64,000 bases of DNA from Halomonas stenophila. GTDB lineage: Bacteria > Pseudomonadota > Gammaproteobacteria > Pseudomonadales > Halomonadaceae. Shown here in pieces: positions 39,525 to 64,000 of the stretch (positions within the stretch are counted from its first letter, which is position 1; every line of letters begins with the position of its first letter). The stretch is taken from the NCBI RefSeq assembly GCF_014192275.1, contig NZ_JACHXR010000010.1, positions 62,001 through 126,000 on the forward strand, read 5' to 3'. The notes below the pieces were generated by a model, which was not told the origin of the DNA, ran no database searches, and saw only the letters and a list, made by a program, of their open reading frames with translations. The translations under genes and the position numbers were made by a program.

Positions 39525-41861
39525 ATGTCGATTATGTTATCCCCTGGAGTTCGCACCTTTGAGCATCCTTCCGGCCAGTCTGTCGCCCGTGGCGCAATTT
39601 CCAACCGACTTCTCGCTATCGGCATGGCACGGAAAGGCCCGATCAACACGCCCATCGCGGTCCGCAGTTTCGAGCAATACGTCGCACGGTTCGGCGACGA
39701 CCTGACCTACGGCGAGCTCGGCATACAGATGCGCCAGGCCTTCACGGCGGGCCTCGGGAGCGCGGTGGTCGTCCGCACGGCCAATAGCCCACGCGCGGCG
39801 CATCATGTCATCGAGAGCGAGTTCAGCAATGACGCGCTCCGCGTCGAGGCGGTTGACGCCGGCGTCCTCGGCGACGCGATCCGGGTCGCGGTCGACTACG
39901 ACACACTCGATCCCGAACTGACCTTCAACATGACACTCTGGCGCGAGACGGTCGACGATCAGGGCCGCCTCGGGCAGGCCGAGAACGAGGCCTACAGCAA
40001 CCTCTCCATGGACCCGCAGGCATCGAACTTCGTGCAACGCGTGGTGAACGGAGCTTCCAGACTGGTCCGCGTGACGGCTGTCCACGACGCCCCGGACTTA
40101 ACGATAAACAACGAGGATCAGGTCTACAGCCAGTCCGGTTCCTACTTCGCCAACGGGGCGGCGCTGGACACCTTCCTGGCCGACATCGCGGAGGAACAGC
40201 GGATCACAGTCGAGATCGACGGCCGCGACCAGGTAACGGCGATCCTGACACCGCCGATCAGCCCGAACTCTATTCACGACGCGATCGAGGCGTCGCTCAT
40301 CGCCCGTTCGCTCTCGGCCCGCGTGAACGTCACCGGTCACGACAGCGGGAACGGCATCGCCCTGCGGATCGCCGTGGACAGTGCCGACGGTACCCGCTCG
40401 ATCCGCATCCTGCCCGCTGGGCAGAACGACGGCACCGGAACCCTCGCGCTCGGCAGCCTGAGGGGCGGGATCGAGGTCGGGCTCTATTCGGATCACCGGC
40501 CCGCGATGACCGGTGTCACGACGCGGCCCTTCGCGGCGGCGGGCGACATCACACCACTCGAGGCGTTGCTCGGCGTCGGAGCCGGGGCGGCCTGGCCGAT
40601 CGACTTCGAGGACGGCACCGCGGACGGCACCATCTCGGGGCTGAGCTGGGGCGTCGCGGGCGCGACGAACCCGATGGACGACGGGGACGGCGGCACGCCG
40701 TTCTCGCTGGAGAGCCTCGCCGGCAACCTCGATAGCCTGGTGGCGACGCTGAACGCCGCCGATCCGCTGGGCGACATCTGGACCTTCAGCCGCATCGGCT
40801 ACCGGGTCCGGGCCATCCGGGACGACGGCATGCTGACGCCCTCCGAAGCGGGAACCCTGGATACCGGAGGCGCGATCGCCTACGTCGACGACGCCGTGGC
40901 CAACCGCCCAGCCTACGGTCTCGGACAAGCCGGCGGCGCGACGACAGGCAGCGACGGTCAGATGCCGGTACTAACGGATTACCAGACCGTGTTCCAGCGG
41001 GTCTCGCGCGAAGTCGATATCTTCAACATGATGATCCTGCCCCGCGGCCACCAGCAGACCGACGATCAGCGCGGCGGGATCTGGGGCGCCGCCAGCGCCT
41101 TTTGCCGCGAACAGAACGCACTTCTCATCATGGACCCGAGAAGTGACGACAACGCCTGGTCGACGGTCGACCAGGTCACCGCGAAAGCCCAGCTCATCGA
41201 GTTCAAGAGCGGCGTGATCCCCGAGGTGTCCTGCGTCTTTTGGCCCCGGGTCAGAACGCCGCTCGGGCGCACCCAGGTCCACGTCGATCCTTCCGGCACC
41301 ATGGCGGGTGTGATCGCCTCAACCGTCGCGCGGCTCGGCGTCTGGAACGCCGCCGCAGGCCTCTCGGCGCCACTCGTCGGGGTCACCGGGCTCGAATACC
41401 CGATGTCGGACGCCGACAACGGCGTCATCAACCCGCGCGGGATCAACGCACTGCGCGCCAAGTCGACCGGGAACGTCATTTGGGGCGTCCGCACGCTGGC
41501 GGGGGACGACGCCTTCTCGAACCGCGATTTCGCCTACATTCCCGTCCGGATGACGACAGACTTCATCAAGAACTCGCTTCAGGTGGCGCTGCAGGAATAC
41601 GTCTTCAAACCGAACAACCGAGTCACCTGGGCGAACATCGAGATGATGTGCCGCGCCTTCATGCACGGCCTCTATGAGAGGAAGGCATTCCGCGGCGCGA
41701 CTGTCGATGACGCCTACAACGTGCGCTGCGATGAGACCACGACTTCACCCACCGACATCGCGCTAGGCATCATGAACGTCTGGGTCTTCTTCGCCCCGCT
41801 ATTCCCTGCCGAATTCATTCACCTTCACGTTCAGCACAAGTTCGAGCAACCCTCATTCTAA
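39525..41861 (+). CDS. Contractile injection system sheath protein
   Basis: A 778-aa tail-sheath protein, the spring that contracts to drive the inner tube. The N-terminal block SPGVRTFEHPSGQSVARGAI and the C-terminal third (ISEVSCVF-type beta core, then NNRVTWANIEMMCRAFMHGL and NVWVFFAPLFPAEFIHLHVQ) match Afp/PVC and phage sheaths. The middle (about residues 130-420) is an added, probably surface-exposed insertion; typical Afp sheaths are only 350-450 aa. ATG at 39525 has AGGTGAG upstream. Only one sheath gene is present, where Afp has three. The tube gene follows 11 bases later. Confidence 0.92.
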   Translation: MSIMLSPGVRTFEHPSGQSVARGAISNRLLAIGMARKGPINTPIAVRSFEQYVARFGDDLTYGELGIQMRQAFTAGLGSAVVVRTANSPRAAHHVIESEFSNDALRVEAVDAGVLGDAIRVAVDYDTLDPELTFNMTLWRETVDDQGRLGQAENEAYSNLSMDPQASNFVQRVVNGASRLVRVTAVHDAPDLTINNEDQVYSQSGSYFANGAALDTFLADIAEEQRITVEIDGRDQVTAILTPPISPNSIHDAIEASLIARSLSARVNVTGHDSGNGIALRIAVDSADGTRSIRILPAGQNDGTGTLALGSLRGGIEVGLYSDHRPAMTGVTTRPFAAAGDITPLEALLGVGAGAAWPIDFEDGTADGTISGLSWGVAGATNPMDDGDGGTPFSLESLAGNLDSLVATLNAADPLGDIWTFSRIGYRVRAIRDDGMLTPSEAGTLDTGGAIAYVDDAVANRPAYGLGQAGGATTGSDGQMPVLTDYQTVFQRVSREVDIFNMMILPRGHQQTDDQRGGIWGAASAFCREQNALLIMDPRSDDNAWSTVDQVTAKAQLIEFKSGVIPEVSCVFWPRVRTPLGRTQVHVDPSGTMAGVIASTVARLGVWNAAAGLSAPLVGVTGLEYPMSDADNGVINPRGINALRAKSTGNVIWGVRTLAGDDAFSNRDFAYIPVRMTTDFIKNSLQVALQEYVFKPNNRVTWANIEMMCRAFMHGLYERKAFRGATVDDAYNVRCDETTTSPTDIALGIMNVWVFFAPLFPAEFIHLHVQHKFEQPSF

Positions 41862-41872
41862 GGGAAGCGATC

Positions 41873-42349
41873 ATGCCCATTACGCCCGTCACGGTCCGTC
41901 CTACCCCTCTGACCAACGCCTATTTCGAATTGTTTCTCGAAGGTCAGTCAGTCGCTGCCGTCACCGCCATAGGCGCCATCAAGTCGAATGTCGCGGCGAA
42001 CCCGTCCAAGGACGGCACCCAGCTCTACTCGGTCTACAGCCCCGGCGCGGTGACCTACGAGGCCTGCGAGATCAAGCAGGCACAGGTACTCGATGTTGCG
42101 CTGCTGAACTGGTTCGAACTGGTGCACAGCCCCGTCAGCGCCGGTGCTATATCGGTCGACGGGATGAAGAAGAATGTGATGATCCACGTCAAGGACAGCC
42201 AGATGCGCCCGCGCATACAGCATGAGCTTTTCGCCTGTCTACCGACTTCGATCGCCTGGGACGCGCTAGATTCCAACGCCGAGGCGAACACGTTTCTGAC
42301 CTTCTCGCTGCAGTACGAATACAGCCTGACGAAATACCTGGAACCCTGA
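41873..42349 (+). CDS. Inner tube protein (gp19/Hcp-like)
   Basis: A 158-aa tube subunit that polymerises inside the sheath. It has the tail-tube layout: beta strands NAYFELFLEGQSVAAVTAIG at the start, GMKKNVMIHVKDSQMRPRIQ in the middle and a strand-rich C-terminus FLTFSLQYEYSLTKYLEP. The size matches T4 gp19 and Afp1/Afp5. It starts with GGGAAGCG upstream. The position directly after the sheath is typical of these loci. Confidence 0.9.
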   Translation: MPITPVTVRPTPLTNAYFELFLEGQSVAAVTAIGAIKSNVAANPSKDGTQLYSVYSPGAVTYEACEIKQAQVLDVALLNWFELVHSPVSAGAISVDGMKKNVMIHVKDSQMRPRIQHELFACLPTSIAWDALDSNAEANTFLTFSLQYEYSLTKYLEP

Positions 42350-42361
42350 TCACAGGGAGTA

Positions 42362-43117
42362 ATGTGGCAGATGATGACTGGACATGTCATTTATGGCGTC
42401 GGGAAACGGCGTAGCTATTCGTGCCGCCCTTTGGACGAGCAAGCGCTGTTCCGGCAGGGCGCAGACCCAGACCGGCTGATGCCGCTGGCTATTGTGCAAG
42501 GCGAGGACAGCCTGTCGTCGGAGGACCTGCCCGAGCTTCCGCTCATCGACTACGAGTTGATGTTGGCGCATCTCTACGTAGGCACATTCGGAGCCACGAT
42601 CGACCAGAACGTCGACTGTCCGGATTGCGGCAAGAAATTCTCCGTGGCGTTCTCACTCAACGCCTGGGTGGGCGGGGTCCGCCGCGCGGTGGCGCCGGAC
42701 GAGGGCAGAGCCTTCGACGGGGCGCCCTACGCGCTCCCGACGTGGGCGATCCTGAAATCGGTAAAGCGGGATCGGAGCGCACTGGCAAGCAGGCTTTGGC
42801 AAGGCGAGACGGCCCTTCCTCCGGAGAGGATCGCCGCCTTCGAGGCGCATGTCGCGAGGGCCTGCCCGATCCTGGCGGATGACATCGAGGCCCCCTGCCC
42901 GCGCTGCGGCGAGGTCGTGCGCAAGCGCTTCGTCCTGAGAAACCACCTCGCATCGCGCCTTCGCACCCGGTTGCGCGCGCTTCTGTCCGACATCCACGTG
43001 CTGGCCTCCAGCTACCACTGGTCAGCCGTCGACATCCTCGATCTGCCGCGCCAGACAAGGGTCGCGCTGATCGACACCATCCAACTACAGCGCCGTCGCG
43101 CGCACGGTTCGCGCTGA
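42362..43117 (+). CDS. Zinc-ribbon baseplate hub assembly chaperone-like protein (T4 gp26/gp51 type)
   Basis: A 251-aa protein with two CxxC pairs, CPDCGKKF (near residue 84) and CPRCGEVV (near 180), that could bind one zinc. The C-terminal segment SYHWSAVDILDLPRQTRVAL resembles T4-family hub-assembly chaperones found in phage and injection-system loci. It probably helps mount the hub and is not part of the final particle. SD AGGGAG precedes the ATG. Family assignment rests on pattern and position. Confidence 0.65.
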   Translation: MWQMMTGHVIYGVGKRRSYSCRPLDEQALFRQGADPDRLMPLAIVQGEDSLSSEDLPELPLIDYELMLAHLYVGTFGATIDQNVDCPDCGKKFSVAFSLNAWVGGVRRAVAPDEGRAFDGAPYALPTWAILKSVKRDRSALASRLWQGETALPPERIAAFEAHVARACPILADDIEAPCPRCGEVVRKRFVLRNHLASRLRTRLRALLSDIHVLASSYHWSAVDILDLPRQTRVALIDTIQLQRRRAHGSR

Positions 43118-43129
43118 GGGGGGAGAGGA

Positions 43130-43987
43130 ATGGCAAGCTACTTCGAAGACATCCTCGAAAGTTACCGTCCGGCCGAGAAAACGACCAGCGTGGATACGCC
43201 ATGGTCAGACCCGATCATCGAGGCCACCGCTCAGGACCTGCCGTTTTCGGACGCGGGCGCTCCGGCAAGCGCCGAAGGGGAGACCGCGCCGCTCGCCTAT
43301 CCGGAGATTCCCGACGCCGATCATTTTCCGGAGCACCTTCAGACCTCTCCAGCCCCTGCCGAAGACCCCGTACAGCGCCCGGTGGCCGAGCCGTTCCAGC
43401 CGGCCGAGAAGATCGTCGAACGCGAGACGCGGATCATCGAGAACCTCGCCGACATGCCCCCGCCCCCTGAGCCTGGCGACGATACGCCGTGGCAGGTGCC
43501 CGCTCCGGACGTTCATCTCCAAGAACATGTCGATCGGTCGACCACGCATCTCCACGAACACCTCCGGATCGTCGAGGACAGCGTGGATTTCGAGCCGGAC
43601 CAGGATGACGCCGGAACTCCTGCACCACCGGACCGGTGCCCTGCGCCCGAGCCGGCCGAGCCGACCGAGCACGGTCCCGACCCCGCGCTCGCGGAGATCG
43701 AGGCCGAGTTGGCCCGCGCCCTCGCCCGGCTCCACGACGAGTACGAACCGCAGAAGCCTTTCGTCTCTCCCGACGATTTCGAGCCCGAGACACGTGACGA
43801 CCCGATCCCCCCCGACATCGAAAGCGTGCGCGAGGTCACCCGGGAAGTCGTCACCGAGATCCACCATCACCACACGACCGAGAGCCGCGTCGAGCCACCT
43901 GCTACGCCCGCACCCCGGACCGCAGCCGAAGCCTCGCGGATCGGCCCGATCCGCTTCGCCTCGGCCTGGAAGACGGGGGAGCCTTAG
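43130..43987 (+). CDS. Acidic, proline-rich disordered protein of the injection cluster
   Basis: A 285-aa protein dominated by Pro, Glu, Asp and Ala with little predicted fold. Two short segments look helical or coiled: EKIVERETRIIENLADM and ESVREVTREVVTEIHHHHTT. The C-terminus is more basic (IGPIRFASAWKTGEP). There is no signal peptide. I do not recognise a family. Its stop abuts the start of the cap gene, so it belongs to the operon. A scaffold or length-setting role is conceivable but unsupported. Confidence 0.7.
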   Translation: MASYFEDILESYRPAEKTTSVDTPWSDPIIEATAQDLPFSDAGAPASAEGETAPLAYPEIPDADHFPEHLQTSPAPAEDPVQRPVAEPFQPAEKIVERETRIIENLADMPPPPEPGDDTPWQVPAPDVHLQEHVDRSTTHLHEHLRIVEDSVDFEPDQDDAGTPAPPDRCPAPEPAEPTEHGPDPALAEIEAELARALARLHDEYEPQKPFVSPDDFEPETRDDPIPPDIESVREVTREVVTEIHHHHTTESRVEPPATPAPRTAAEASRIGPIRFASAWKTGEP

Positions 43988-45340
43988 ATGGCCGTCACCC
44001 AGCTTTCCCAGGTCACGACGACCCTAGAGACGCTGCTCGCAGCGAACATCGAGCGGCGGATGGGAGGCGCGTTGACGGTCAACACGAGTTCGGTCTCACC
44101 GCTCGACGTGTCGCCCACGACGAATCTCGTCAACATCTTCCTCTATCACCTGCACCCCGAGGGTAAGCCCGACGTTGCCGAGGAGCCGGCTGTCAATCCG
44201 CCCCGCCCTGCGTTCTTTTCCAAGCCGCTGACGCTTCACTACCACCTGACCACCCACCAATCGTCCGGGAATCTGCCGCACCTGTCCGAGCAGGACCTGC
44301 TGGGCCATGCCCTGGCGACACTGCTCGACCATTCCGAACTGGACGAAGATCTCGCCATCGGGTCGGTTCCGGTCTTCGAGGACGCGCTCGTCGGGGCCGA
44401 TAACTGCTTCGAGATCGAGGTCGTTGTCAAGGCGGGCAGCGAGGCTCTGAACGTCTGGCCCGCCTACGACGGCGGCTCAGTTCGGCCGAGCCTCTATTTC
44501 AGGGTCAAGAACGTCCGGCTCCAGCCCGAGATGCCGCAGGAGCTTTCCGGGCCAATACTGACCATCGGCGACGCGACGCTGCCCAACATGGGGCCGCGCC
44601 TATATCGCATCTCGAGCACGATCACTGCGACCCTGCCCGGAGCAGGCGGGACCGCGCAGCGCCAGTTCACCCGGACGCCGGCCGAGCTGTTCCTGGGCGC
44701 GGGACCGGACGACAGGACTCTCGTGCTTCGTGGCACCTCCATCGCCCGTTTCGTGGACATCGAACTCACCGTGCCGGTGGGCGACGCGATGGAAACCTTC
44801 CGCGTCGATTTCGAGGCCAACGCCGCGAACGGCTGGGCGATTGATGACGAACGCGGCGAGGTTCGGGTGACCATCGGTGCGGTGGTCGACCGCCCGGTTG
44901 CCGGCGTGATGCAGCCACTCTCACTTGAGCCCGGCGATGCGCAGATCCGCGTTCTGACGAGCGAGACCATGATGCAGGACGGCGAACCCGTACCCTTCGA
45001 GATCCCGTCGAACCGCTTGCCCTTCACGCTGAACCCCCACGTCGCGCAGGCGACCCTCGTCTCCGGCCGGCGGTTCCGGCTCGACCTCGACGGTGACTTC
45101 GACCTCGAGACGATGGCGCCCCCGGACACCCATGCCAGCTTCCTGCGGCTGGCGCTCAGCGGCGCAATCTACAACGTGCGCGATACGGCGGCCAGTCTCG
45201 AGGCGGGAGAGGCCGCCATCGCCGGTCCAAGGCGGGTCGACTACGTGCTGTTCGATGACGCCGACGAGAATGCCCTGGCCTATCTCCAGCTCTGGATCCG
45301 CAACGCGGTCAGCCAGCCGTTCTGGGTGGGGGGAGCGTAG
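43988..45340 (+). CDS. Tail terminator / cap protein with DUF4255 (Pvc16-like)
   Basis: A 450-aa protein. The N-terminal 190 residues are the Pvc16/DUF4255 domain: LSQVTTTLETLLAANIERRM, VSPTTNLVNIFLYHLHPEGK and LHYHLTTHQSSGNLPHLSEQ. This domain caps the distal end of the tube and sheath in Afp and PVC particles. The remaining 260 residues are beta-rich and may be added Ig-like domains (IARFVDIELTVPVGDAMETF and later strands); many Afp16-type caps are shorter. It directly abuts the AAA+ gene. Confidence 0.88.
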   Translation: MAVTQLSQVTTTLETLLAANIERRMGGALTVNTSSVSPLDVSPTTNLVNIFLYHLHPEGKPDVAEEPAVNPPRPAFFSKPLTLHYHLTTHQSSGNLPHLSEQDLLGHALATLLDHSELDEDLAIGSVPVFEDALVGADNCFEIEVVVKAGSEALNVWPAYDGGSVRPSLYFRVKNVRLQPEMPQELSGPILTIGDATLPNMGPRLYRISSTITATLPGAGGTAQRQFTRTPAELFLGAGPDDRTLVLRGTSIARFVDIELTVPVGDAMETFRVDFEANAANGWAIDDERGEVRVTIGAVVDRPVAGVMQPLSLEPGDAQIRVLTSETMMQDGEPVPFEIPSNRLPFTLNPHVAQATLVSGRRFRLDLDGDFDLETMAPPDTHASFLRLALSGAIYNVRDTAASLEAGEAAIAGPRRVDYVLFDDADENALAYLQLWIRNAVSQPFWVGGA

Positions 45341-47236
45341 ATGCGCAACTTCGCCGAGCTCTATGCCATCGAGATAGATGCCATCGTCAAACTGACCGAA
45401 GCATCGCTGACCGGCAACCACGAAGGCGAGCAGCTGGAAGCACTGCGCGCGCGGCTCGCCGACCCCGAAAGCTCGCGCTTTGCCAAGCTGACCCGGATGC
45501 TGGGCCTGAAACGGCCCGAATGCGACCTGCTGCTCTGCCTGATCGCGCATCACGTCCAGCCCCACCTCGACACAGCCATCCGCAAAAGGTCCACGCTGCC
45601 CTATGTCCATGAGGCGCTTGTCAGGGAGATTTTCCGACAGGACCGGATGCCGATCTACACTTCCGACAGCGCCCTGAACCTCTGGCAGCTTGTCCGGGCC
45701 CGCGACATGGGGCCCGGCGCGCCGATGGCATTCGACATCGACCTCGCGGTGATTGAATGGCTGGCCGGCAAACCGGGGCTGGAACCGGCCCTGCAGCAAC
45801 TGCTCACGCGGGTCGAGGGACAGGCTGCGGATGACGGGATCGCGTGCGACCTGGCTCAGGCGATCCGGGCCGAGGGCAGCAAGGTCCACGGTATCATATG
45901 CGAGCTGACCGGCAGCTCCGAGACCGATTTCACCGAGGTCGCCGCCGGAGCGGCATCCATGTTGAATACCAGCCTGTGGGTCGTGCAGGCGCGCGAGGAA
46001 CCGTTCGACCCCGATCAGGTTCTCCGCATCCACCGTTTCGTCACTGTCCAGAACGCGGCGCTCTACTGGCAGGCCCCCGAATCCCGGCACCTCGAACCGT
46101 GCATCTCGCCGTCCGCGCGGCTCCAGTTCATCGCCAATGCCGAGAGCCAGCCCGCCCGCACCTCCGCGACGCACCGATACCTGAGCTTCGAGGTTCCCGC
46201 CCCCCGCCGCAATACCCTCCGCAAGCGGCTGCGCGCGCACTTTCCCGATGCGCCGGAAGACAAGCTTCGTCGGGTGGCAGCCATACGCGGCGTGGACGCC
46301 CGGCTGATCGAGACTGCGCAGTCGTCCGATATCGACGCCCTCGCCCGCCACGCCCTGACACGAAGCACGCGCGCCCTCCACGCCTGGGCAATGCCGCTGT
46401 CGACCGACGTGGGCTTCGACGACCTCGTCCTGGACCCACCGATGCGGGAACAGCTCGAGGATCTAGTCGCCCAGATACGAATCCAGCACGAGCTGATGGA
46501 CAGGCCCGAGGTCGCCCGGGTCTACGTTCAGGAACGGGCGCTCTCGATCCTGCTGCAAGGCCCGCCCGGCACCGGCAAGACGCTAAGCGCACGGGTTCTG
46601 GCGGGCGAGGCCGGTCTGCCGCTCTTCCGCGTGGACGTAGCGAGCCTCGTCAGCAAGTGGCGCGGCGAGACGAACAAGAATCTGCGCGAGATGTTCCGGG
46701 CCGCGACGCGGTCCGGCGCGATTCTGTTCGTAGACGAGTTCGACGCGGTCGCTTCGAAACGGACGGAAACCCGCAACGAGGTCGCGCGGGCCGACAACCA
46801 GAACACGGCCTATTTCCTGCAACTCATCGAGAACGCCTACGAGGGCACGGTGGTCTTTGCGACCAACCGGCCGAAGGAAATCGACGAGGCCATGCTGCGC
46901 CGCATCCGCCATACGCTCGACTTCCAGCCCCCGGGCGAGTCCGAACGCACGAAACTGTGGCGTCTCGCGCTGGCGCCCTTCGAACCGGCGGAGGACCTTC
47001 TGGCATTTTCCGAGGTCCTCGGCCCCGCCTTCAGCTTCTCCGGCGCCCGCATCAAGGCCGTCGTGCTGAACGCCTACGCGCAGGGCGCCGCCAGCGGGGA
47101 CGATGCGCTGACCATCGATGGACTGCGGCGCGCGACGCTGGCCGAGGCCCGGCAGAACGGCCGTTTGCCCGGCAAGCGGGAACTGAGCCGCGTGCTCTCA
47201 TACTGCAATTCCGAGATCAGGGCGGTGCAGTCATGA
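45341..47236 (+). CDS. AAA+ ATPase of the injection system (Pvc15/Afp15-like)
   Basis: A 631-aa ATPase. The AAA+ module starts near residue 400 with Walker A GPPGTGKT (about 407-414), Walker B ILFVDEFDAV, sensor-1 VVFATNRPKEID and the arginine-finger region MLRRIRHTLDF. The N-terminal 380 residues are helical and typical of this CIS-associated group. Afp15/Pvc15 ATPases are thought to help assemble particles or load cargo. This gene separates eCIS loci from simple R-type tailocins. The stop overlaps the next gene at ATGA. Confidence 0.92.
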   Translation: MRNFAELYAIEIDAIVKLTEASLTGNHEGEQLEALRARLADPESSRFAKLTRMLGLKRPECDLLLCLIAHHVQPHLDTAIRKRSTLPYVHEALVREIFRQDRMPIYTSDSALNLWQLVRARDMGPGAPMAFDIDLAVIEWLAGKPGLEPALQQLLTRVEGQAADDGIACDLAQAIRAEGSKVHGIICELTGSSETDFTEVAAGAASMLNTSLWVVQAREEPFDPDQVLRIHRFVTVQNAALYWQAPESRHLEPCISPSARLQFIANAESQPARTSATHRYLSFEVPAPRRNTLRKRLRAHFPDAPEDKLRRVAAIRGVDARLIETAQSSDIDALARHALTRSTRALHAWAMPLSTDVGFDDLVLDPPMREQLEDLVAQIRIQHELMDRPEVARVYVQERALSILLQGPPGTGKTLSARVLAGEAGLPLFRVDVASLVSKWRGETNKNLREMFRAATRSGAILFVDEFDAVASKRTETRNEVARADNQNTAYFLQLIENAYEGTVVFATNRPKEIDEAMLRRIRHTLDFQPPGESERTKLWRLALAPFEPAEDLLAFSEVLGPAFSFSGARIKAVVLNAYAQGAASGDDALTIDGLRRATLAEARQNGRLPGKRELSRVLSYCNSEIRAVQS

Positions 47237-47934
47237 CACTGACCACTCCGCCAGTGAAGTCCGTCAAGGGCGCGATGATCCAGCTCAATCCGAAGAGCGG
47301 CATGGCGGGGATCATGAACAACATCCCCAACGTCGTGCAGTTCGACATCAACCCTGAGACGTTAACCCGCAGCTTCACACCCTGGAAGGCGGAGGCGGAA
47401 GAAGGCGTCCCGAGCCCCGGCGCCCCAGTGCAGCCGATCGAGGTACCACAGAAGTTCACCGGCTTCGAGATCAGCATCGACCCCTATGCCACGAAGGGCT
47501 CGCTGATCCCGCCGAATTCGTTCAGCGTCGAGGCGCGCCTGGCGGCGCTGCGCAAGATGATCGAGCCTACCAAAGGTCTGATCGGGGACCTCCTGCAGTC
47601 GGTGGCCGATCTCACCAACACCGGTTCATCGGACTACACCCCACCGGAGGTCGCCCCGGTCATCCTCTGGCTCGGTGCGCGAATCATTCTGCCTGTCCAG
47701 GTCGAGAGCTTCACGATCACCGAGCATCAGCACGACGCACTCTACTACCCGATCCGGGCGACCGTCGCCATGGACCTGAAAGTGCTGACTCCCGACTACT
47801 TCCGCTGCAGCGACAGCGACGCCGCCGAGATCGCGATCGCAGCCTACGAATACACCCGCGCGCAAAGCGACCTGCTGGCGGTTGCCAGCCTGGCCGATCT
47901 GTCGCCGCTCTGGCGACTTATCGCACCAATTTGA
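47233..47934 (+). CDS. CIS tube/hub adaptor protein (Afp7-like)
   Basis: A 233-aa protein whose core VVQFDINPETLTRSFTPWKA matches the CIS tube N-terminal domain (Afp7/Pvc7 family), which links the tube to the spike hub. The C-terminal half is a beta sandwich (PVQVESFTITEHQHDALYYP, IRATVAMDLKVLTPDYF). No LysM domain is attached, unlike Afp7; a separate small protein follows and may supply that function. The ATG at 47233 overlaps the ATPase stop. Confidence 0.85.
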   Translation: MTLTTPPVKSVKGAMIQLNPKSGMAGIMNNIPNVVQFDINPETLTRSFTPWKAEAEEGVPSPGAPVQPIEVPQKFTGFEISIDPYATKGSLIPPNSFSVEARLAALRKMIEPTKGLIGDLLQSVADLTNTGSSDYTPPEVAPVILWLGARIILPVQVESFTITEHQHDALYYPIRATVAMDLKVLTPDYFRCSDSDAAEIAIAAYEYTRAQSDLLAVASLADLSPLWRLIAPI

Positions 47935-47945: not shown

Positions 47946-48230
47946 ATGGCCAAATTCTCGCCCGATAGCCGTTACAGCAGACACTCACAGCCCTTCAAGA
48001 CCACCGACCCGCGCGGACGCGAGGTGCTGGCGGTCAAGCCTGCGGTGATCCCGGCGAAACGGAACCGCGGCGCGCATGTCGCGAAAGACCCGCAGCGGCT
48101 GGACCACCTGGCGTGGTTTTACCTCAAGCGCGCCGATGCGTTCTGGGAGATCACTGCGCACAACGGGCGCCTGCTGCCCGATGCCGTCCTCGTCCAGTCG
48201 CGCATCCGCATCCCGCTGGACGGAGATTGA
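47946..48230 (+). CDS. Small gpX/LysM-like tail protein
   Basis: A 94-aa basic protein. The second half DHLAWFYLKRADAFWEITAH followed by NGRLLPDAVLVQSRIRIP resembles the LysM-like fold of phage tail protein X, with a closing IRIP strand. It may bind peptidoglycan or clamp the hub. A GAAGGA site precedes the ATG at 47946. Its position after the Afp7-like gene suggests that an Afp7-type LysM has been split off. Confidence 0.7.
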   Translation: MAKFSPDSRYSRHSQPFKTTDPRGREVLAVKPAVIPAKRNRGAHVAKDPQRLDHLAWFYLKRADAFWEITAHNGRLLPDAVLVQSRIRIPLDGD

Positions 48231-49485: not shown

Positions 49486-50033
49486 ACGACATTGCGAATC
49501 GCGGCCCCACCATCGACGAGCTCTACCGCCCGAGCAGCGGGCGCCTCTACGGCAAGTACCTCGGCGAAATCACCGACAGGGACGATCCGAAACGACGCGG
49601 CCGCCTGCGCATCAGGGTCGACAACATCACCGACGCCAAAGGCATCTGGGCCGACCCCTGCGTGCCCTACGCGGGCGACGGCATCGGCTTCTTCGCGCTG
49701 CCGCCCGAGGGCACGAAGGTCTGGGTGGAGTTCCTCGGCGGGAGGATCGACCGCCTCGTCTACTGCGGCTTTCTCTGGCAGGAGGGCGAACTCGATGGGC
49801 AGGACTACGACCCCGCCCGCGTACATTTCGAGACCGGCTCGCTGCGGATCGAGGTCGATGACTCCGCCGACGAGATCAAAATCGAGATCAAGAACAACGG
49901 CGGCTCGATCACCATCAAGGGCGGCGAGATCACGCTGAAGGCAAACATCGTCACGCAGGAAGCGCAGGGCAACAAGGTGATCCTCGACGCCGCCGCCTTC
50001 GACGTCAAGAACGCCGCGCTGAAAGTCGTGTAA
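49482..50033 (+). CDS. Central spike protein (gpV / gp5 OB-fold)
   Basis: A 183-aa protein with the gp5 OB fold: KYLGEITDRDDPKRRGRLRI, then GIGFFALPPEGTKVWVEFLG and LVYCGFLWQEGEL. The C-terminus has repeated strand blocks (IKIEIKNNGGSITIKGGEIT, LKANIVTQEAQGNKVILDAA) that would form the trimeric beta-helix needle. In Afp, hub and spike are one protein (Afp8); here they are two, as in phages P2 and Mu. Confidence 0.92.
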   Translation: MNDIANRGPTIDELYRPSSGRLYGKYLGEITDRDDPKRRGRLRIRVDNITDAKGIWADPCVPYAGDGIGFFALPPEGTKVWVEFLGGRIDRLVYCGFLWQEGELDGQDYDPARVHFETGSLRIEVDDSADEIKIEIKNNGGSITIKGGEITLKANIVTQEAQGNKVILDAAAFDVKNAALKVV

Positions 50034-57808: not shown

Positions 57809-60800
57809 AACGCCGCATCACCAGGGAACACGACGCCCGCCAGGGTTACGGCGGCGTCTATTGGGAGGGTGGCGGCGCCATCACCGACGCGGACCTCAAC
57901 GCCGCCTTCGACGCCAATCGCGAAAAGGACGAGGCATTGGCCCGGGTCTGGGTCGCGCCCGCGGGCAGCGCCGACGACGGCTGGCGCGCCGGCGGTCTGA
58001 GGAACGTGGCGGGCATGGTCGATTTCGACCTCGCCGCCGGACACTACCTGCTGGACGGCGACCTTCTGAGAAACCCCCAGAGCTATGCCTTTATCGAGCA
58101 GCCGCACGGGTTGTCCGCGGCGCTGGAGCCCGACATGGCGCTCGACTGGCCGGCGGAAGACGAGATCGCAGATGCGGGCGGCGAACGCTTTGACGCCGTC
58201 GTGATCGACAGCCGCACACTGGCGGTCACGGTCGTGGAGGACAGCGAACTGGACGAGGTCGCGATGCGCAGCGATCCGGCGACCCGCGTGCGCCCCTCGC
58301 CCAAGGTCCGCATCCTGCCCGGGGTATCGCCCAGCTGCGCCGAGGCGCGGCCGCAGGTCATGGATCTGCTGGCGGGCGATTGTGCCGAAGTCGAGCTGCC
58401 GTCGCCGGCGATCCGCCCGCGCGGACGCCTGCGGGTCCACCTGGGCACCGTGGAGGAGCCCGACAATCCCTGCGCACCGGAACAGGCCCTGGGCTATTTC
58501 GGCCGCCTGAACCACACCATCAAGGTGATGCTGACGGCGCCGGACCGCTTCGTCTGGGCCTATCGGAACGGCGGTGAACTCTACCGCGCGACACTCGACG
58601 ACGACGCCACCCTGCGCATCGTGACGCCCTTCGACGACAGCTCGCGCTTTCCGGTTTCCGGCCAGATCGCCGAGCTTCTGACATGGGACAGCCGGCTGCC
58701 GAATGGTGAGGTCACCGCCGCACCCCTGGGTCGTTTCCACGCCATTCAGGCGGGCTATACCCCCGGCGACGAGACCCTCGAACTGGCCGCGCCCGTGGAT
58801 ACAGACCTGCGCGACTGGTACGACGCGCAGGGCGACGGCACCTTTCTGTTCGTGCGCTTCTGGGAGCCGCCGGCCATCGCCATGCAGACCTCCACCGCCA
58901 CCGGTGCCGACGTACCGCTCGCCGACACCGGCGTCAGGCTGGATTTCGTCGAAGCGGGCTGTGCGGGCGACCAGTGGACCTTCAGCGTGCGCGCCAACGT
59001 CAACGATTCCGTGTTCCCGCAGCGGATGCTCGAAGCGGGCGGCCAGCCGCCGGGCGACATCCGCCGCGCCGCCGACCTGATCGCGCTGATCCACTGGCAG
59101 CTGGAAGGCGGCGAGGTGGTGGGACATATCCACGACTGCCGCCGCAAAATCCGGCCGCTGTGGAAACTCCGCGGCTGTTGCACCGTAACGGTCGGCAACG
59201 GCGTATCCAGCTTTGGCGATGTCGACCGGTTGGAGGACGCCATTGCCGCCCTGCCGCACGAGGGCGGGCGCATCTGCCTCCTGCCCGGTATCCACACCGG
59301 CGGCGCCGCGCTGCGGAATCGCATCGACATCACCATCGAGGGCTGCCGGGGCCAGACCCGGCTGGTGCAGGGCCCCGGCGACGGGCCCGCCCTGACGATC
59401 GAGGATTGCGCGGGCGTCACCATCAGGGACTTCACCATCGAGGACGGCAACCGCCTGGCGGTGGCGGCGGCGCGCACCTCCCGCCTGACCCTCGAGCGGA
59501 TCGACACGGTCGGCCGCGGCTCGGCCATCTCGCTGGTCGACGGCAGCGGAACCCGGGTCGGCCACTCCCACTTCCTCGCCGAAGAGGAAGCGGCGATCAT
59601 CCCGGCCGAGGACTACGCCGCGCTGCGTCCGCTCGCGTTTGTCGGCGGCGAGGACCTGGTTATTTCCGACAATCGCTTCCGATGCGACACGTCCCGGCTG
59701 ACGCTGATGTCGCTGGGCGGGCTGCAGATCGCCTCGGGCAGCCGGGGCGTGACGATCGCGCGCAACGTTATCCGCGGCGGCCTCGGCCACGGCGTCACAC
59801 TCTGCCACCTGAATCTCATCCGCGTGCTCGGCCTGGTTTACGGCGAGGCGGAACTGGTTGCCGAGCTGGGGGCAGCCATGATGCAGGCGGTGGACGAGCG
59901 CGCCACCTGGAGCGAGAACAGTCGTGAGGCAACGGTGGCGGGCAGCGACCTGCTCGAGCACGGCGAGGTGCCCTCCGAAGCCGCGCGGGAGCTGATCTCG
60001 AATGCGACCTTCAGCTTCATCGAAAACCCCATCGGCATCACCCAGGTCGCCCTGCAGGGCTGCCTGGGTATCGATCCGACACTGACGCTGCCCGAGCCCG
60101 ATGACGACGATGACGACTGGACCCTCTATGTCCCGGCGGGTGCGGTGAGCCATGTCCATATCGTCGACAACGAGATCGCCAATATGGGCGGTTCCGGCAT
60201 CTCGATTCCATCCTGGAACCTCTCGCTGCGCCCCACCGCCGGCGAATGCATCGTCGAGGGGCTGGCCGCCGAGCGCAACCACATCGCCAATTGCGCCCGG
60301 GTGGCCGTCGCCTCGACTCTCGACGACGACCTGCAGGAGATCGGCTTCGGCGGCATCGCACTGCAAGTCGTGCGCGGCGCGATGATCGGCTCCAACATCA
60401 TTCAGGGGATAGGCACCGGTCACCGCAGTCCATCCGCCGGCATCTACTTCTCCGAAGTGCAGACCTGCCATATCCACGACAACCAGATCCTCGAGGTCGG
60501 CCGGCTCGAACGGTCGGGCAACCGCAATATTCTGGGCGTGTCGGGCGGCATCCTCATCGACGGGGCGACGTCGGTCTGGGGGCCGCCGGTCACCGGCGGC
60601 AGCATTCGCGACTATATGGCTGAACAGGGCAACCTGAGTGGCGAGGTCCTGGCTGCGGTCGGCGAGGAGCACCCCGCCTCCGGCGGCAGCGGGGCCGGGA
60701 TGGTCAGGGACGGGGATTTCGCCGCAAGGGCAGAGAGCATCGCGCAGCTTCTCGAGCTGCCCCGCACAGAAGCGCTGCGCATCCAGAACAACCAGGTCGC

Positions 60801-61428
60801 GGTCAATTCCGGCATGAGCCTGGACGTCCGCGGCGCCGGCTCCTTCCACATCGCCGACAACCACCTGACCACCCTCGCCGCGCGGCTCAATCCGGCCCGG
60901 CCCCGGCTGGCGAGCGCGGTATCCGTGGTTAATTCCGAGTTCCCGTTTGTAGAGACGCTGGTGTGGCTGATGGCCCTCTTCCGCATCTTCGAAATCGAGT
61001 TCGGGAAATTCGGATCGAACTACCTCCTGCAAATCCTCGTCGCCGCGACCACGCAGGTTTCGGCGCAGCGCGACCGGGGCGTAATCCAGCTCCAGAACAA
61101 CCATATCCGGACGGAAAACTTCGTGCGCGGCGATGACTCCCTCGCGTTGGTAACCGTCGTTTCGCCCTATGACGTGCAGATCAGCGACAACACCCTGAAG
61201 TCGGTGCACAGCGACACCGGCGCCTTCCTGCACCTGCTGGCAACCGGCGCGCTCTCGCTCCAGTGCCTCTCGAACCGGATCGAATCCCGGCCGCAAGCGG
61301 GCGTCCTCGGCGCCGCGCTGACCGCCGGACGCGACAACACCACCTTCCTGAACCACGCCAGCCACGGAATCGCGCAGATGCGGCTCACCCCCGCCGCGCC
61401 GTCCGGGCCGGGCAACATTCACCCCTGA
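57805..61428 (+). CDS. Large parallel beta-helix protein, DUF6519-like N-terminus
   Basis: A 1207-aa protein. Residues 1-40 (ARQGYGGVYWEGGGAITDAD) resemble the baseplate-anchoring start of DUF6519-type proteins, though divergent. Residues about 470-1190 show right-handed beta-helix repeats: GCRGQTRLVQGPGDGPALTI, DCAGVTIRDFTIEDGNRLAV and many N/D-H-I/V-x-N turns such as VHIVDNEIANMGGSGI. It is the best candidate for a surface-exposed receptor-binding or enzymatic fibre. No catalytic site is identifiable. No classical tail-fibre gene is otherwise visible. Confidence 0.8.
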   Translation: MKRRITREHDARQGYGGVYWEGGGAITDADLNAAFDANREKDEALARVWVAPAGSADDGWRAGGLRNVAGMVDFDLAAGHYLLDGDLLRNPQSYAFIEQPHGLSAALEPDMALDWPAEDEIADAGGERFDAVVIDSRTLAVTVVEDSELDEVAMRSDPATRVRPSPKVRILPGVSPSCAEARPQVMDLLAGDCAEVELPSPAIRPRGRLRVHLGTVEEPDNPCAPEQALGYFGRLNHTIKVMLTAPDRFVWAYRNGGELYRATLDDDATLRIVTPFDDSSRFPVSGQIAELLTWDSRLPNGEVTAAPLGRFHAIQAGYTPGDETLELAAPVDTDLRDWYDAQGDGTFLFVRFWEPPAIAMQTSTATGADVPLADTGVRLDFVEAGCAGDQWTFSVRANVNDSVFPQRMLEAGGQPPGDIRRAADLIALIHWQLEGGEVVGHIHDCRRKIRPLWKLRGCCTVTVGNGVSSFGDVDRLEDAIAALPHEGGRICLLPGIHTGGAALRNRIDITIEGCRGQTRLVQGPGDGPALTIEDCAGVTIRDFTIEDGNRLAVAAARTSRLTLERIDTVGRGSAISLVDGSGTRVGHSHFLAEEEAAIIPAEDYAALRPLAFVGGEDLVISDNRFRCDTSRLTLMSLGGLQIASGSRGVTIARNVIRGGLGHGVTLCHLNLIRVLGLVYGEAELVAELGAAMMQAVDERATWSENSREATVAGSDLLEHGEVPSEAARELISNATFSFIENPIGITQVALQGCLGIDPTLTLPEPDDDDDDWTLYVPAGAVSHVHIVDNEIANMGGSGISIPSWNLSLRPTAGECIVEGLAAERNHIANCARVAVASTLDDDLQEIGFGGIALQVVRGAMIGSNIIQGIGTGHRSPSAGIYFSEVQTCHIHDNQILEVGRLERSGNRNILGVSGGILIDGATSVWGPPVTGGSIRDYMAEQGNLSGEVLAAVGEEHPASGGSGAGMVRDGDFAARAESIAQLLELPRTEALRIQNNQVAVNSGMSLDVRGAGSFHIADNHLTTLAARLNPARPRLASAVSVVNSEFPFVETLVWLMALFRIFEIEFGKFGSNYLLQILVAATTQVSAQRDRGVIQLQNNHIRTENFVRGDDSLALVTVVSPYDVQISDNTLKSVHSDTGAFLHLLATGALSLQCLSNRIESRPQAGVLGAALTAGRDNTTFLNHASHGIAQMRLTPAAPSGPGNIHP

Positions 61429-61446
61429 CAGAAGCGAGGCGCCGCC

Positions 61447-62850
61447 ATGGCGAAAGCGTACAGCGACAGCATTCCGGACCAGATGGGATCCGACCTGGAC
61501 GAGGCCTTCGAAAAGGCGCGCCTCCAGCACAGGGCGCGCCGCGAAGCGGCGCAGGCGGCAACCGCCCGCGCCGCCCGCTGGGGCGGATTCGTGCGGGATC
61601 CGGGCTACACCGACACCCTGGTCTGGCGGTCGGTGTCCCTGGCACAGGCCAAGGGCGCAGAGGAGAGCGCGGCAGAAGAACTGCAGGAAGCGCACGCGAC
61701 CATGAAGCGCCTCTCCGCCCGCTCCAACAAGGAGGAGGCGCGCATCTTCGGCCACGTCGAGTCGCCGACCGGCGGCGGCGAGGCCGACCTGATCGATTCC
61801 GAAGGTTGCACCATCGCCACCTCGCCAATCGACAAGCTCGGCTACTATGCCGTGGTGACCGAAGCGACGGGGGAGTCGGCGCGGATCGAAATCCGCGACG
61901 CCCAGGGACAGCTCGCGGTGCTCGACGGCCGCCCCGTGGAACTGACACCGGGGCTGATGGCCAGGCGCGATTTCACCTCCGGCCGCTGCGGCAAAGTCGA
62001 ACCCGCGCCCGGCGAGCCGGACGAGCAGGTGGAAATACCGGATCTCATCGGCGAGACCGCCGCGGATGCGAGGGCGGCACTGGGCGAGTTGGGCGACTTC
62101 CGCATCAGTTACGACGAGAGCTATTCCGACGACGCGCCCGCAGAGACGGTCATCGCGCAGGCCCCCGACCCCGGTCGCACGCTGATGCCGGGCGGCCTCG
62201 TGCTTCTCGGTATCTCGCTCGGCCCCGAACCCCAGCAGACCATGCCCGACCTCGTCGGCCGGAGCGAAGAGGAGGCGCGCAAGGGGCTCGCCGAGCTGCG
62301 GTATTCCGCGGTGCAATTCAGCCAGGTGGTGGACCGCAAGAATGCCGGCCGCGTCGTCAAACAGACTCCGGAAGCGGGCGCCGCGGTCGGCGAGGACACC
62401 GAAATCCGGCTTTGCATGGGCGTCGCGGCCCGGCTGATGCCCGACCTCGTGGGCCGGACACGCAAGGAGGCGCTCGAAGTCCTGGTGCCGGACTATGTCG
62501 ATGCCCCCACGATCCGGGAGGAGCCCGGCGACGGGCCCGCCGATATCGTCCTGGAACAGGATCCGAAGGCGGGCGAAGCCGTCGGCGATGCGAGGGTAAC
62601 GCTGGTCATCTCGATCGGGCGCCGGGAAGAGGAAAACGGCGAGGAGAAGGTTCCCACCATGCCCGATGTCAGCGGCAAAACCCGCGCCCAGGCGCTCAAG
62701 CTGCTCAAGGCCGAAGGCATCGAGGAAGCCGAATTCGACGAGAAAGCGGCCAGGCGCAGAGGCGCGCGAGTGGTTGAGCAGACGCCGCCCGCCGGCAAAC
62801 CCCTGAAGAGCAGCCTGCGGGTCAAACTCACGTTCGCGAAGCCCGAGTGA
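61447..62850 (+). CDS. PASTA-repeat protein of the injection cluster
   Basis: A 467-aa protein. Residues 1-90 are helical and charged; about 95-175 is a beta domain (FGHVESPTGGGEADLIDSEG). Four PASTA repeats follow from about residue 195, each starting PDL(I/V)G or PDVSGKT and ending with a QxPxxGxxV block: VEIPDLIGETAADARAALGE, TMPDLVGRSEEEARKGLAEL, LMPDLVGRTRKEALEVLVPD and TMPDVSGKTRAQALKLLKAE. PASTA domains bind peptidoglycan or act as spacers in Gram-positive kinases. There is no signal peptide, consistent with a particle component. Confidence 0.88.
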   Translation: MAKAYSDSIPDQMGSDLDEAFEKARLQHRARREAAQAATARAARWGGFVRDPGYTDTLVWRSVSLAQAKGAEESAAEELQEAHATMKRLSARSNKEEARIFGHVESPTGGGEADLIDSEGCTIATSPIDKLGYYAVVTEATGESARIEIRDAQGQLAVLDGRPVELTPGLMARRDFTSGRCGKVEPAPGEPDEQVEIPDLIGETAADARAALGELGDFRISYDESYSDDAPAETVIAQAPDPGRTLMPGGLVLLGISLGPEPQQTMPDLVGRSEEEARKGLAELRYSAVQFSQVVDRKNAGRVVKQTPEAGAAVGEDTEIRLCMGVAARLMPDLVGRTRKEALEVLVPDYVDAPTIREEPGDGPADIVLEQDPKAGEAVGDARVTLVISIGRREEENGEEKVPTMPDVSGKTRAQALKLLKAEGIEEAEFDEKAARRRGARVVEQTPPAGKPLKSSLRVKLTFAKPE

Positions 62851-62851
62851 G

Positions 62852-64000
62852 ATGGAACAGTCGCAGGCGCAGAAGCAGACTGCCGACGCCCCCGAGGCCA
62901 GCCGCTCCCGGCGGACCGGGGTGTCTGCAGAGGCCGCCGCCACCGCCCAGCGACAATCCCACCAGCCGGTCTATATCGAGCCCCGCAACACCAGTTTCGA
63001 ATCCGAGGCGCGCCACGCCGCCAGCCGCTTCGGCGGCCAGCCGGTCGACCTCACGCCCAGTCCCTTCGCGGCGTCGGGCCGCCGGGCCGAGCTGGGGCCG
63101 GAACTTTCCCGCCAGCTGGTAGACCGGCTGGATCAGGGCGGCCGCCCGCTGCCGGGCGAAGCCCGCCAGCGCATGGAGCGGCATTTCCACAGGAAGCTCG
63201 ACAGCGTCCGCATCCACGACGACCCGGTGGCGGCCGAAATTGGCAGTGCCATCGACGCGCACGCCTTCGCGCTGCGCCGTCACATTTTCTTTCGCGACGG
63301 TTTCGCGGCGAGCAACCCGCAGGACCTGCGCGTGCTCGCGCACGAACTCATGCACGTCCTGCAACAGTCCGAAGGTGCGAGCGAAGGCTATGTCATCCAG
63401 CGCGATGACCCCGGCGATGTCGAGGTCAGTGAGACCTGGGAGGGAGAGGGCGGCGATCGCGGCTTTGCCCTCGACTTCTCACAGAGCGACAGTCTTTTCA
63501 CCATGCCGAGACTGGAGTTGCCGAAGATCAATGGCAAGATCAAGGGCAAGTCCCGGCAGGACGGAATCACCACCACGCTCATACCATCGACCGATTTCAC
63601 CTATACGACCCGAAACGAGGAGCGGGATACCGCGCAGCGCCAGCTCTGGACACAGCGCATCACCGAGAACAAGACCCAGATCGAGGAAGCGATCCAAGCC
63701 TTCATCCCGAACCCATCGTCGGAGAGCGACAGCGACCCGATCTATTACCTGAAAGTCCGCGCAACGAACCAGATACTCTCCGGAACCAAAGCCCAGCTTC
63801 TGGCCCGGGACGAGTTGCTGATCCCGAATTGGAACAAGAGGGGAAGGGCAAGTTTCTATCACGTGGATCACTACCGCGAACACCAGCTCGAGGGGCCGGA
63901 TTCGATCGAAAACGTCTGGCTCCTGGAGGAATCGGCCAATACCTCCTCCGGGTCCCGGATCAGGAACACGGTCCTGGCTGAGATCAACGACCTCTTCCGC
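62852..64000 (+). CDS. DUF4157 eCIS-core protein with HELMH motif and HNH-like tail (cut by window end)
   Basis: At least 383 residues, starting MEQSQAQKQTADAPEAS one base after the PASTA gene stop and open to the window end. DUF4157 spans about 80-190: RHFHRKLDSVRIHDDP-like block, AHAFALRRHIFFRDG and the zinc-protease motif HELMH at 164-168. A basic middle follows. From residue 337 HVDHYREHQLEGPDSIENVW and LLEESANTSSGSRIRN resemble HNH-type nucleases. DUF4157 marks eCIS cargo or toxins, so this is probably an effector. The ATG at 62852 overlaps no other gene. Confidence 0.82.
   Translation, partial: MEQSQAQKQTADAPEASRSRRTGVSAEAAATAQRQSHQPVYIEPRNTSFESEARHAASRFGGQPVDLTPSPFAASGRRAELGPELSRQLVDRLDQGGRPLPGEARQRMERHFHRKLDSVRIHDDPVAAEIGSAIDAHAFALRRHIFFRDGFAASNPQDLRVLAHELMHVLQQSEGASEGYVIQRDDPGDVEVSETWEGEGGDRGFALDFSQSDSLFTMPRLELPKINGKIKGKSRQDGITTTLIPSTDFTYTTRNEERDTAQRQLWTQRITENKTQIEEAIQAFIPNPSSESDSDPIYYLKVRATNQILSGTKAQLLARDELLIPNWNKRGRASFYHVDHYREHQLEGPDSIENVWLLEESANTSSGSRIRNTVLAEINDLFR

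Follow-up and report, generated by a model that had tools for sequence, protein, structure and literature searches.

A narrow subtype of contractile injection system with a fixed 18-gene order in Halomonas stenophila

A row of phage tail-like genes may be a prophage remnant, a T6SS or a contractile injection system (CIS) in its own right, and the locus described here raises the further question of whether its gene set sets it apart from known systems. The sequence-only reading of the window (the whole 64,000-nt stretch of DNA analyzed here) had proposed 18 consecutive plus-strand genes of an unusual eCIS. According to our analysis, all 18 are present on the plus strand (39525–66340, the last gene overrunning the window), and we established the gene set, the gene order, the sheath clade and the conservation of the 18-gene cassette. 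The locus probably encodes a complete, self-contained free CIS with a dedicated DUF4157 payload, for which we can give a predicted activity, target and site of action.

Gene content and layout of the cassette

The spacing at the 17 gene junctions ranges from −20 to +18 bases, and the 4-base ATGA overlap, earlier ascribed to most of the genes, was found at 6 of the 17, so that description was overstated. The first gene (39525–41861; its ORF has a GTG opening at 39516) encodes a tail sheath of 778 aa (PF17482, Phage_sheath_1C, 2.4e-7; phrog_23, 1.8e-43; best PDB match 9ezm, 5.2e-34). It is followed by a single-copy inner tube (41873–42349; PF06841, T4_gp19, 1.9e-10), a T4 baseplate-protein-like product with CxxC zinc motifs (42362–43117; PF12322, 2.1e-6; phrog_150 baseplate hub, 5.2e-6), a proline-rich low-complexity protein of 285 aa (43130–43987), a Pvc16/Afp16-like tube/sheath cap (43988–45340; PF14065, DUF4255/Pvc16_N, 2e-18) and an AAA+ ATPase (45341–47236; PF00004, 1.4e-29), which is Afp15/Pvc15-like by its position and cap neighbor. 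The next product (47233–47934), conserved in a 10-row alignment, is by its position a putative Afp7-like tube initiator or adaptor, and the small LysM/gpX-sized protein after it (47946–48230) has a homologue annotated as “tail protein X” in the L068 locus.

The protein encoded at 48232–49485 was placed as the predicted baseplate hub, of the gp27/VgrG N-terminal type and without a spike domain. Its AlphaFold2 model (pLDDT 71.7, from 21 rows, i.e., the window and 20 of the 29 homologue matches) gave chain 7aef_q of the Algoriphagus CIS as the best Foldseek match (E 3e-13), together with 7b5h, VgrG, Mu gp44 and T4 gp27. The spike, with a gpV/gp5 OB domain, is a separate gene (49482–50033; PF04717, Phage_base_V, 2.4e-18), unlike the fused VgrG-like protein of Afp and PVC; it also has weak VgrG-model matches under the cut-off. 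A PAAR-like tip is suggested for 50044–50364 by position; the protein at this place in the L058 locus weakly matches DUF4280 (0.0077, under the cut-off).

The rest of the baseplate comprises a gp25 wedge (50345–50737; PF04965, 1.3e-10 on the longer ORF 50261–50737; phrog_261, 3e-10), two J-like proteins (50734–53220, TIGR02243, 1.8e-18, 66.5 bits, under the cut-off of 155.8; 53217–55463, TIGR02243, 6e-28, 97.8 bits, and PF04865, 0.00033, both under the cut-off) and a putative P2-gpI-like protein (55460–57808), whose homologues in the L069 and L058 loci match Tail_P2_I (8.8e-5 and 0.0016, the latter under the cut-off). A beta-helix protein, likely a fibre or tailspike (57805–61428; PF13229, 8.3e-10; phrog_2234 tail spike, 0.00056; L069-locus homologue with DUF6519, PF20129, 1.2e-10), precedes a PASTA-repeat protein with four matched stretches and no hydrophobic segment (61447–62850; PF03793, 2.2e-41) and a DUF4157/eCIS_core protein of 1162 aa (62852–66340, in the window to 64000; PF13699, 6.1e-23).

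Thus, family matches were found for the sheath, tube, cap, ATPase, spike, gp25, both J-like, beta-helix, PASTA and DUF4157 proteins that the sequence-only reading had named. The products starting at 43130, 47233, 47946, 48232, 50044 and 55460 had no family match in Pfam (nor, for part of them, in PHROGs); the hub assignment stood through its structure model and that of the gpI-like protein through its homologues, while the Afp7-like name rests on position.

Separation from phages, T6SS and known systems

As in the CIS superfamily, a single cluster holds the genes for sheath, tube, spike, gp25 and the J-like baseplate proteins, and the eCIS marks, i.e., the DUF4255 cap adjoining the AAA+ ATPase and the DUF4157/eCIS_core protein, are all present. 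No TssJLM membrane complex or ClpV was found among the 18 cassette proteins (Pfam). TssG was found separately, on contig C12.

The tail genes are phage-derived and include a J/gpI/gp25 block, as would be expected of a prophage remnant or R-type tailocin. Nevertheless, the AAA+ ATPase, DUF4255 and DUF4157 proteins argue against such an origin, and a Pfam search of 10 upstream and 7 downstream proteins (4 of the 17 without any match, and the last 2.4 kb of the contig outside the scan) revealed no phage head, portal, terminase or phage integrase gene. No head genes were seen beside the relatives’ cassettes in the listed flanking ORFs, judged by eye, and relatives of neither the hub nor the DUF4157 protein were confirmed in viral contigs.

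The sheath trees were built from 15 plasmid loci (from 60 matches listed among 122 matching records), 7 phage sheaths (from 25 matches listed among 44 matching), 2 of 29 DUF4255 loci of other genomes (those whose short stretch yielded a usable sheath), 6 PDB segments, 4 named genomes and the window; for the second tree the four longest branches, three of them phage, were removed. The sheath falls into an 18-row clade (support 100/98 and 100/99 in the two trees), separate from the Afp/PVC, S. coelicolor-type Streptomyces, haloarchaeal and phage sheaths tested. All 7 phage sheaths lie outside this clade, two long-branch phage rows of the first tree being unplaced among other CIS rows. On the flanks and the trees we reject a phage or tailocin origin, which we regard as extremely improbable, and the earlier view of the locus as an eCIS-type CIS, neither prophage nor T6SS, was borne out by its gene set, flanks and sheath trees.

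Both trees also agree with the claim that the locus lies outside the Afp/PVC sheath clade. Afp and PVC share with the window the sheath, tube, cap, ATPase, gp25 and J proteins, but have a VgrG-like hub-spike fusion instead of separate genes, several sheaths (Afp2–4, Pvc2–4), a tape measure and Afp13. The class comparison covers Afp/PVC, Streptomyces IId and haloarchaeal IIa sheaths. The general sheath model PF04984 had no match in the entire genome; other sheath models matched.

The best PDB sheath match, 9ezm (120.9 bits), comes from the haloarchaeal CIS of Halogeometricum borinquense (clade IIa), and the second, 8bky (109.7 bits), from the Streptomyces IId CIS, which has two tube genes (PMC10066040) versus one recognized in the window. 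Both sheaths belong to cell-associated systems, which is a point against a released CIS. They would fit a CIS that stays in the cytoplasm or is anchored to the cell, as in Streptomyces and haloarchaea, and fires in or from the producer, with the DUF4157 protein acting on the producer or a touching neighbor. The absence of any recognizable lysis or immunity gene among the 18 proteins (Pfam) likewise speaks against release and for such a system. The absence of a tape measure (Afp14), for which no match was obtained among the 18 proteins (Pfam, PHROGs, NCBIfam), also fits such a system: the Streptomyces CIS has neither an Afp13 fibre nor an Afp14 tape measure of the typical kind (PMC10066040), and the haloarchaeal CIS is without a tape measure, plug or crown homologue (PMC11566945). 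Since both lack a typical tape measure, its absence, earlier offered as a subtype sign, was confirmed as an observation but is not diagnostic.

However, the sheath lies outside the Streptomyces group that includes S. coelicolor (98/94) and does not group with 9ezm. Moreover, our hydrophobicity scan revealed no segment in 17 of the 18 cassette proteins, one weak segment in the remaining protein, and no polytopic or membrane-anchor-like gene within the cassette, and the beta-helix and PASTA proteins are outer-fibre candidates. We therefore consider the cell-associated alternative unlikely.

A core subtype within a wider lineage

The core subtype comprises the window, Microbulbifer, Yoonia, a Rhodobacteraceae genome and Nitrosospira. 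All 18 cassette genes occur in unchanged order in the four other genomes, which excludes a chance assembly. Within about 7–11 kb per side, the flanks gave one weak upstream match and none downstream (E <= 1e-4). Since the order is kept while the flanks are unrelated, the cassette seems, from these sequence comparisons, to move between genomes as one unit.

The wider lineage includes Cupriavidus P-10, Rhizobium, Ensifer, Novosphingobium, Paracoccus ferrooxidans and three Streptomyces replicons, whose sheaths share the clade of the window and whose loci, over the parts fetched and matched, keep its order of genes, with separate hub and spike; in the S. europaeiscabiei locus the baseplate half is inverted. 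Hub and spike as separate genes, and the small gene of LysM/gpX size, were both regarded earlier as unusual and are both present in the window; all 13 loci compared (8 plasmid, 5 other-genome loci) gave matches to them. The first J-like protein was matched in 13 loci, the second in 12, and the gpI-like protein in 9 (three stretches stop short of its gene, and Rhizobium had no match). In Nostoc and Roseomonas, hub and spike are likewise annotated as separate genes. A gene set unique to this locus is thus ruled out, as the layout recurs on other replicons.

The replicon loci differ from the core in several respects. Sheath identity is 27–34% (six compared), no PASTA match was found in them (only some stretches, e.g., L058 and L069, extend beyond the beta-helix gene), and their DUF4157 proteins differ, lying between the ATPase and the Afp7-like gene in 4 of 5 proteobacterial plasmid loci. 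The CIS family is already known, and the separate hub and spike, LysM/gpX-sized gene, two J-like proteins and P2-gpI-like protein are features of a wider lineage; the new element is the narrow core subtype, with its fixed 18-gene order, unrelated flanks, PASTA gene and DUF4157 protein conserved end to end. The claim of an unusual gene set holds for this subtype and fails for the layout. None of six queried genera, including Nitrosospira, Microbulbifer and Halomonas, appears in the main texts of PMC8213781 and PMC12923769.

The PASTA gene is present as claimed but is not a unique part, since the compact CIS loci of Deinococcus AJ005 and Paracoccus MC1862 have PASTA too; among the papers searched, none joins “contractile injection system” and “PASTA domain.” All 13 loci examined (8 plasmid, 5 core) have a proline-rich ORF (11–28% P) at the corresponding position, making its product a candidate length ruler. 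For 6 of the 8 plasmid loci the N-terminal motif itself served to pick the start, and for the other 2 no start could be assigned, so the count of that motif is biased. The C-terminal pattern as written fits 6 of 13 loci but 0 of 5 core loci (shuffled mean 0.05).

The DUF4157 protein and the proposed mode of action

The fixed DUF4157 protein is the strongest oddity of the locus and was missed by the sequence-only reading. Residues 180–480 matched 22 proteins, 20 of which (including that of the window) are full-length DUF4157 proteins of 1136–1184 aa, conserved end to end (58–88%, 20-row alignment). An HExxH motif (164–168) and an HNH-like set (D339, H340, N354, N363) are invariant in 20 of 20. 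Seven contigs are apparently common to the 29 hub and 22 DUF4157 matches. The protein is seemingly not swapped between core genomes and apparently travels as a machine part.

The HNH motif hints at a possible nuclease, an idea at the motif level. Pfam gave no nuclease match up to E 5, the HNH stretch is poorly modeled (pLDDT about 25–40), and an hhalign comparison with a single annotated HNH protein gave no significant match (probability 0.3%); these points, and an invariance unusual for a weapon, speak against a released CIS with this payload. A conserved structural or assembly part, e.g., a chaperone or a membrane-inserting beta domain, is a tentative alternative. The end-to-end conservation is consistent with it, as is the fact that in alpha/beta core members the protein (59–65%) is as conserved as the sheath (57–58%) and the gpI-like protein (64–66%), with residues 961–1140, near the C-terminus, being the most conserved part. 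The predicted structure is rich in beta strands and weakly resembles LptD, FimD, VDAC and pore proteins (Foldseek), but these matches carry little weight because the model is poor (pTM 0.37). We rejected a pore or barrel role for the C-terminal beta domain (best-row TM-scores 0.07–0.08 by query length, 0.09–0.20 by target length). Furthermore, published eCIS surveys closely tie DUF4157 to toxins (PMC8213781, PMC11297309), which leaves the structural role doubtful.

Our preferred reading remains a free CIS that carries its own dedicated payload. By homology, a trimeric hub, together with the separate spike and tip, would nucleate a baseplate of gp25, the two J-like proteins and the gpI-like protein, on which tube and sheath would polymerize; the DUF4255 protein would cap the far end, and the AAA+ ATPase would load cargo. 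More tentatively, the beta-helix and PASTA proteins may be outer target-binding parts, the latter directed to peptidoglycan, and the DUF4157 protein may be the payload, possibly an HNH-type nuclease, of a particle that is not membrane-anchored by cassette proteins and acts once released from the cell. A bolder and rather improbable extension is that machine and payload are inherited as one: the cassette would be passed among alpha-, beta- and gammaproteobacteria always with the same DUF4157 protein (a metalloprotease-type HExxH and an HNH-like site, followed by some 650 residues of beta structure), where other eCIS have exchangeable toxins at the 3' end; PASTA fibres would aim it at peptidoglycan, and the proline-rich protein would replace a helical tape measure.

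The VgrG-like Afp8/Cis8 marker is the mainstay of published eCIS surveys: Afp8 accompanies Afp11 in 98.7% of loci in one (PMC8213781), and Cis8 is present in all 639 clusters of another (PMC12210884). Since the hub has no Pfam match and the sheath escapes the general sheath model, marker searches may miss or misfile the core subtype. If the payload is indeed invariant, a single natural pair would suffice to test how cargo is recognized and loaded. The proline-rich slot provides a way to test length setting in a CIS without a recognized tape measure. These loci represent a sparsely scattered and little-studied branch of the CIS family.

The 18-gene cassette and its surroundings

Positions 39525-66340 of the window (G000:C10:62001-126000, where G000 is the genome of 4.34 Mb in 34 contigs and C10 the contig) carry 18 genes, every one on the plus strand; the final gene, encoding the DUF4157 protein (62852-66340), runs 2,340 bases past the window end. 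Junctions between genes range from -20 to +18 bases, with a 4-base ATGA overlap at 6 of 17. Thus, the sequence-only reading was correct about 18 consecutive plus-strand genes and overstated in saying that most overlap at ATGA. Searches against Pfam, PHROGs and NCBIfam matched the sheath, tube, T4-baseplate-like protein, DUF4255 cap, AAA+ ATPase, spike, gp25, two J-like proteins, beta-helix, PASTA and eCIS_core, and the general sheath model PF04984 had no match in the whole genome. The hub protein (48232) had no family match; its structure model (mean pLDDT 71.7; input of 21 rows, the window and 20 of 29 hub hits) matches CIS Cis8, VgrG, Mu gp44 and T4 gp27. The gpI-like protein (55460) itself also had no family match, and Tail_P2_I was matched by its homologues in the wider-lineage loci L069 and, more weakly, L058. 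Upstream of the sheath gene lie about 500 bases (39015-39515) that are AT-rich in places and hold no clear gene, where the 2-kb GC content is 0.62 versus about 0.65-0.70 around it; this is likely a promoter region. No Rfam families or tRNA were found within the 64-kb window.

None of the 17 flanking proteins scanned (10 upstream and 7 downstream) matched a phage head protein, a terminase or a phage integrase, the kind of neighbors that the sequence-only reading had named as counter-evidence. By the four marks tested (a tail gene cluster, a DUF4255 cap beside an AAA+ ATPase, DUF4157/eCIS_core and no head or packaging genes), the locus belongs to the CIS superfamily.

The upstream proteins (22919-38532; two are rival frames of one stretch, three lack a match) are otherwise a VTT-domain membrane protein, a type I secretion set that includes an RTX protein, and LapD/LapG-like partners; ThiI lies at 36088. 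The neighbors at 22919-35730 (BTLCP protease, LapD, RTX protein, ABC transporter, HlyD and OEP-OmpA proteins) resemble an export set for a Lap-type adhesin. Downstream, one protein lacks a match; the rest comprise a cytochrome P460 protein, a pyridine nucleotide oxidoreductase, LysR, PrpF and an IS481-type transposase divided between two frames, which lies 8 kb beyond the window end (L001:8299-9295, in the continuing DNA). The latter shares 87.5% identity over 60% of the 1.8-kb query with two Halomonas sp. THAF12 plasmids, at most a hint of a Halomonas-type host. The same genome carries the T6SS gene TssG (G000:C12:90657-91553, E 2.3e-99).

Sheath phylogeny and the wider lineage

In a 37-row tree of the sheath C-terminus, the core subtype (the window, Microbulbifer, Yoonia, Rhodobacteraceae and Nitrosospira) and the plasmid loci group together (100/98), and all 7 phage sheaths fall outside, so the placement inside ordinary phages that would have told against the sequence-only reading was not seen. 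A 38-row tree with five further genomes, leaving out four long branches, groups these with the core and plasmid loci (100/99). The Afp, PVC, 9qgl and 9r9h sheaths form a separate group (100/95), as does Streptomyces 8bky (98/94); haloarchaeal 9ezm is unplaced outside the three supported groups. The core branch is long (1.67 changes per column). The locus differs from Afp/PVC, as had been proposed, and from Streptomyces IId both in gene content and in the clade of its sheath, which also falls apart from the haloarchaeal sheath; this comparison draws on published CIS work (PMC11566945, PMC12998442, PMC12923769, PMC8213781, PMC12210884, PMC8894136, PMC10066040, PMC8910223, PMC11297309).

The sheath (tblastn) matched 122 plasmid records. 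Among 15 examined, 8 loci, on replicons of Cupriavidus, Rhizobium, Ensifer, Novosphingobium, Paracoccus and Streptomyces, had the gene order of the window, save in Streptomyces europaeiscabiei (L068:26849-40504), where the baseplate half has the opposite orientation to the sheath half. An alignment search with the Afp7-like gene (47233) matched 6 genomes in the phylum sample of 398, counting that of the window, and the other five share the gene order. In these 13 wider-lineage loci the hub, spike (49482) and LysM-sized (47946) genes were matched separately in all 13. Hence the separate hub and spike and the LysM/gpX-sized gene, which the sequence-only reading counted toward an unusual subtype, are not peculiar to this locus. 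J1 was matched in 13, J2 in 12, and the gpI-like and beta-helix genes in 9 each, with some stretches ending early: that of genome G728 starts inside the sheath, and those of Cupriavidus, Novosphingobium and Ensifer stop before gpI. The gpI-like gene was not matched in the Rhizobium locus, nor the beta-helix gene in that of genome G360.

Predicted working of the particle

By homology, assembly and contraction would follow the known CIS scheme. A proline-rich ORF (43130 in the window; about 260-480 residues) separates the T4-baseplate-like gene from the cap gene in all 13 core and plasmid loci examined (5 and 8), and because the Afp tape measure adjoins the ATPase and cap, its product is a candidate length ruler. 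A hydrophobicity scan found no hydrophobic segment in 17 of the 18 cassette proteins, and no membrane complex was recognized among them; for these reasons a free particle is favored, with clear doubt, over an anchored or cytoplasmic one, and it would be let out through lysis supplied from elsewhere.

The two J-like proteins alongside a gpI-like protein are a notable combination. A receptor-binding catalogue reports that Afp11/12 loci lack Tail_P2_I and that Tail_P2_I loci largely lack Afp12 (PMC12923769). The combination is not unique, since Nostoc UHCC 0926, like the window, has both.

The PASTA gene (61447) marks the core, with 4 matched stretches in the window and Microbulbifer and 6 in Rhodobacteraceae, Yoonia and Nitrosospira. 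Between the window and the alpha/beta core members, the PASTA protein is 33-34% identical, compared with 57-58% for the sheath. PASTA binds peptidoglycan, and the change in repeat number and fast divergence would be as expected for an outer binding part. None of the 13 wider-lineage loci matched PASTA, only some of their stretches extending to its slot. Compact one-J CIS on Deinococcus (L062:29160-30119) and Paracoccus (L065:24131-25294) plasmids also encode a PASTA protein, immediately following the gpI block.

DUF4157 is described as an N-terminal mark of varied toxins, and eCIS 3'-end genes as variable (PMC8213781, PMC11297309). In contrast, the core DUF4157 protein is conserved end to end, at 58-88% to 19 relatives (two shorter hits excluded from the alignment). 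Its residues 180-480 match 22 proteins, namely 20 full-length DUF4157 proteins, its own counted, and the two shorter entries. HExxH (164-168) and D339, H340, N354, N363 and G367 are invariant across all 20 aligned proteins; the spacing of the latter five resembles an HNH site, a reading confirmed by neither profile nor structure model. The core has no cargo gene between the ATPase and Afp7-like genes, the place of DUF4157 frames in G728 and in four of five plasmid loci from proteobacteria. A DUF4157 frame on the Cupriavidus P-10 plasmid (L056:27304-34455) has 2,384 codons, and its matched part ends with an apparent second DUF4157-like HExxH segment.

Distribution of the core subtype

DUF4255 was matched in 30 of 369 genomes of the class sample, the window's own counted; loci of CIS type are thus not rare in that class. 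The hub was found in the window's own genome only, both among 398 genomes of the phylum sample and among 38 searched as relatives (24 of the other 37 belong to its genus). A search of 5.77 billion proteins, scoring the 7,995 candidates with the most shared words, gave at least 29 hub homologues at E <= 0.001. Of 20 viral-contig stretches that fitted a hub pattern, none was confirmed. A GTDB contig scan with the hub led to four named loci, in Microbulbifer sp. YPW16, an uncultured Rhodobacteraceae genome, Yoonia vestfoldensis and Nitrosospira sp. Nl5. All four have the 18 genes in identical order, with protein identities to the window of 60-97% in Microbulbifer and 32-83% in the other three (beta-helix gene taken as two pieces). 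The flanks compared (about 7-11 kb) share a single weak upstream match, Microbulbifer-Nitrosospira (3.8e-9), and no downstream match common to any. Judged from these sequence comparisons, the core cassette looks like a rare unit that moves whole.
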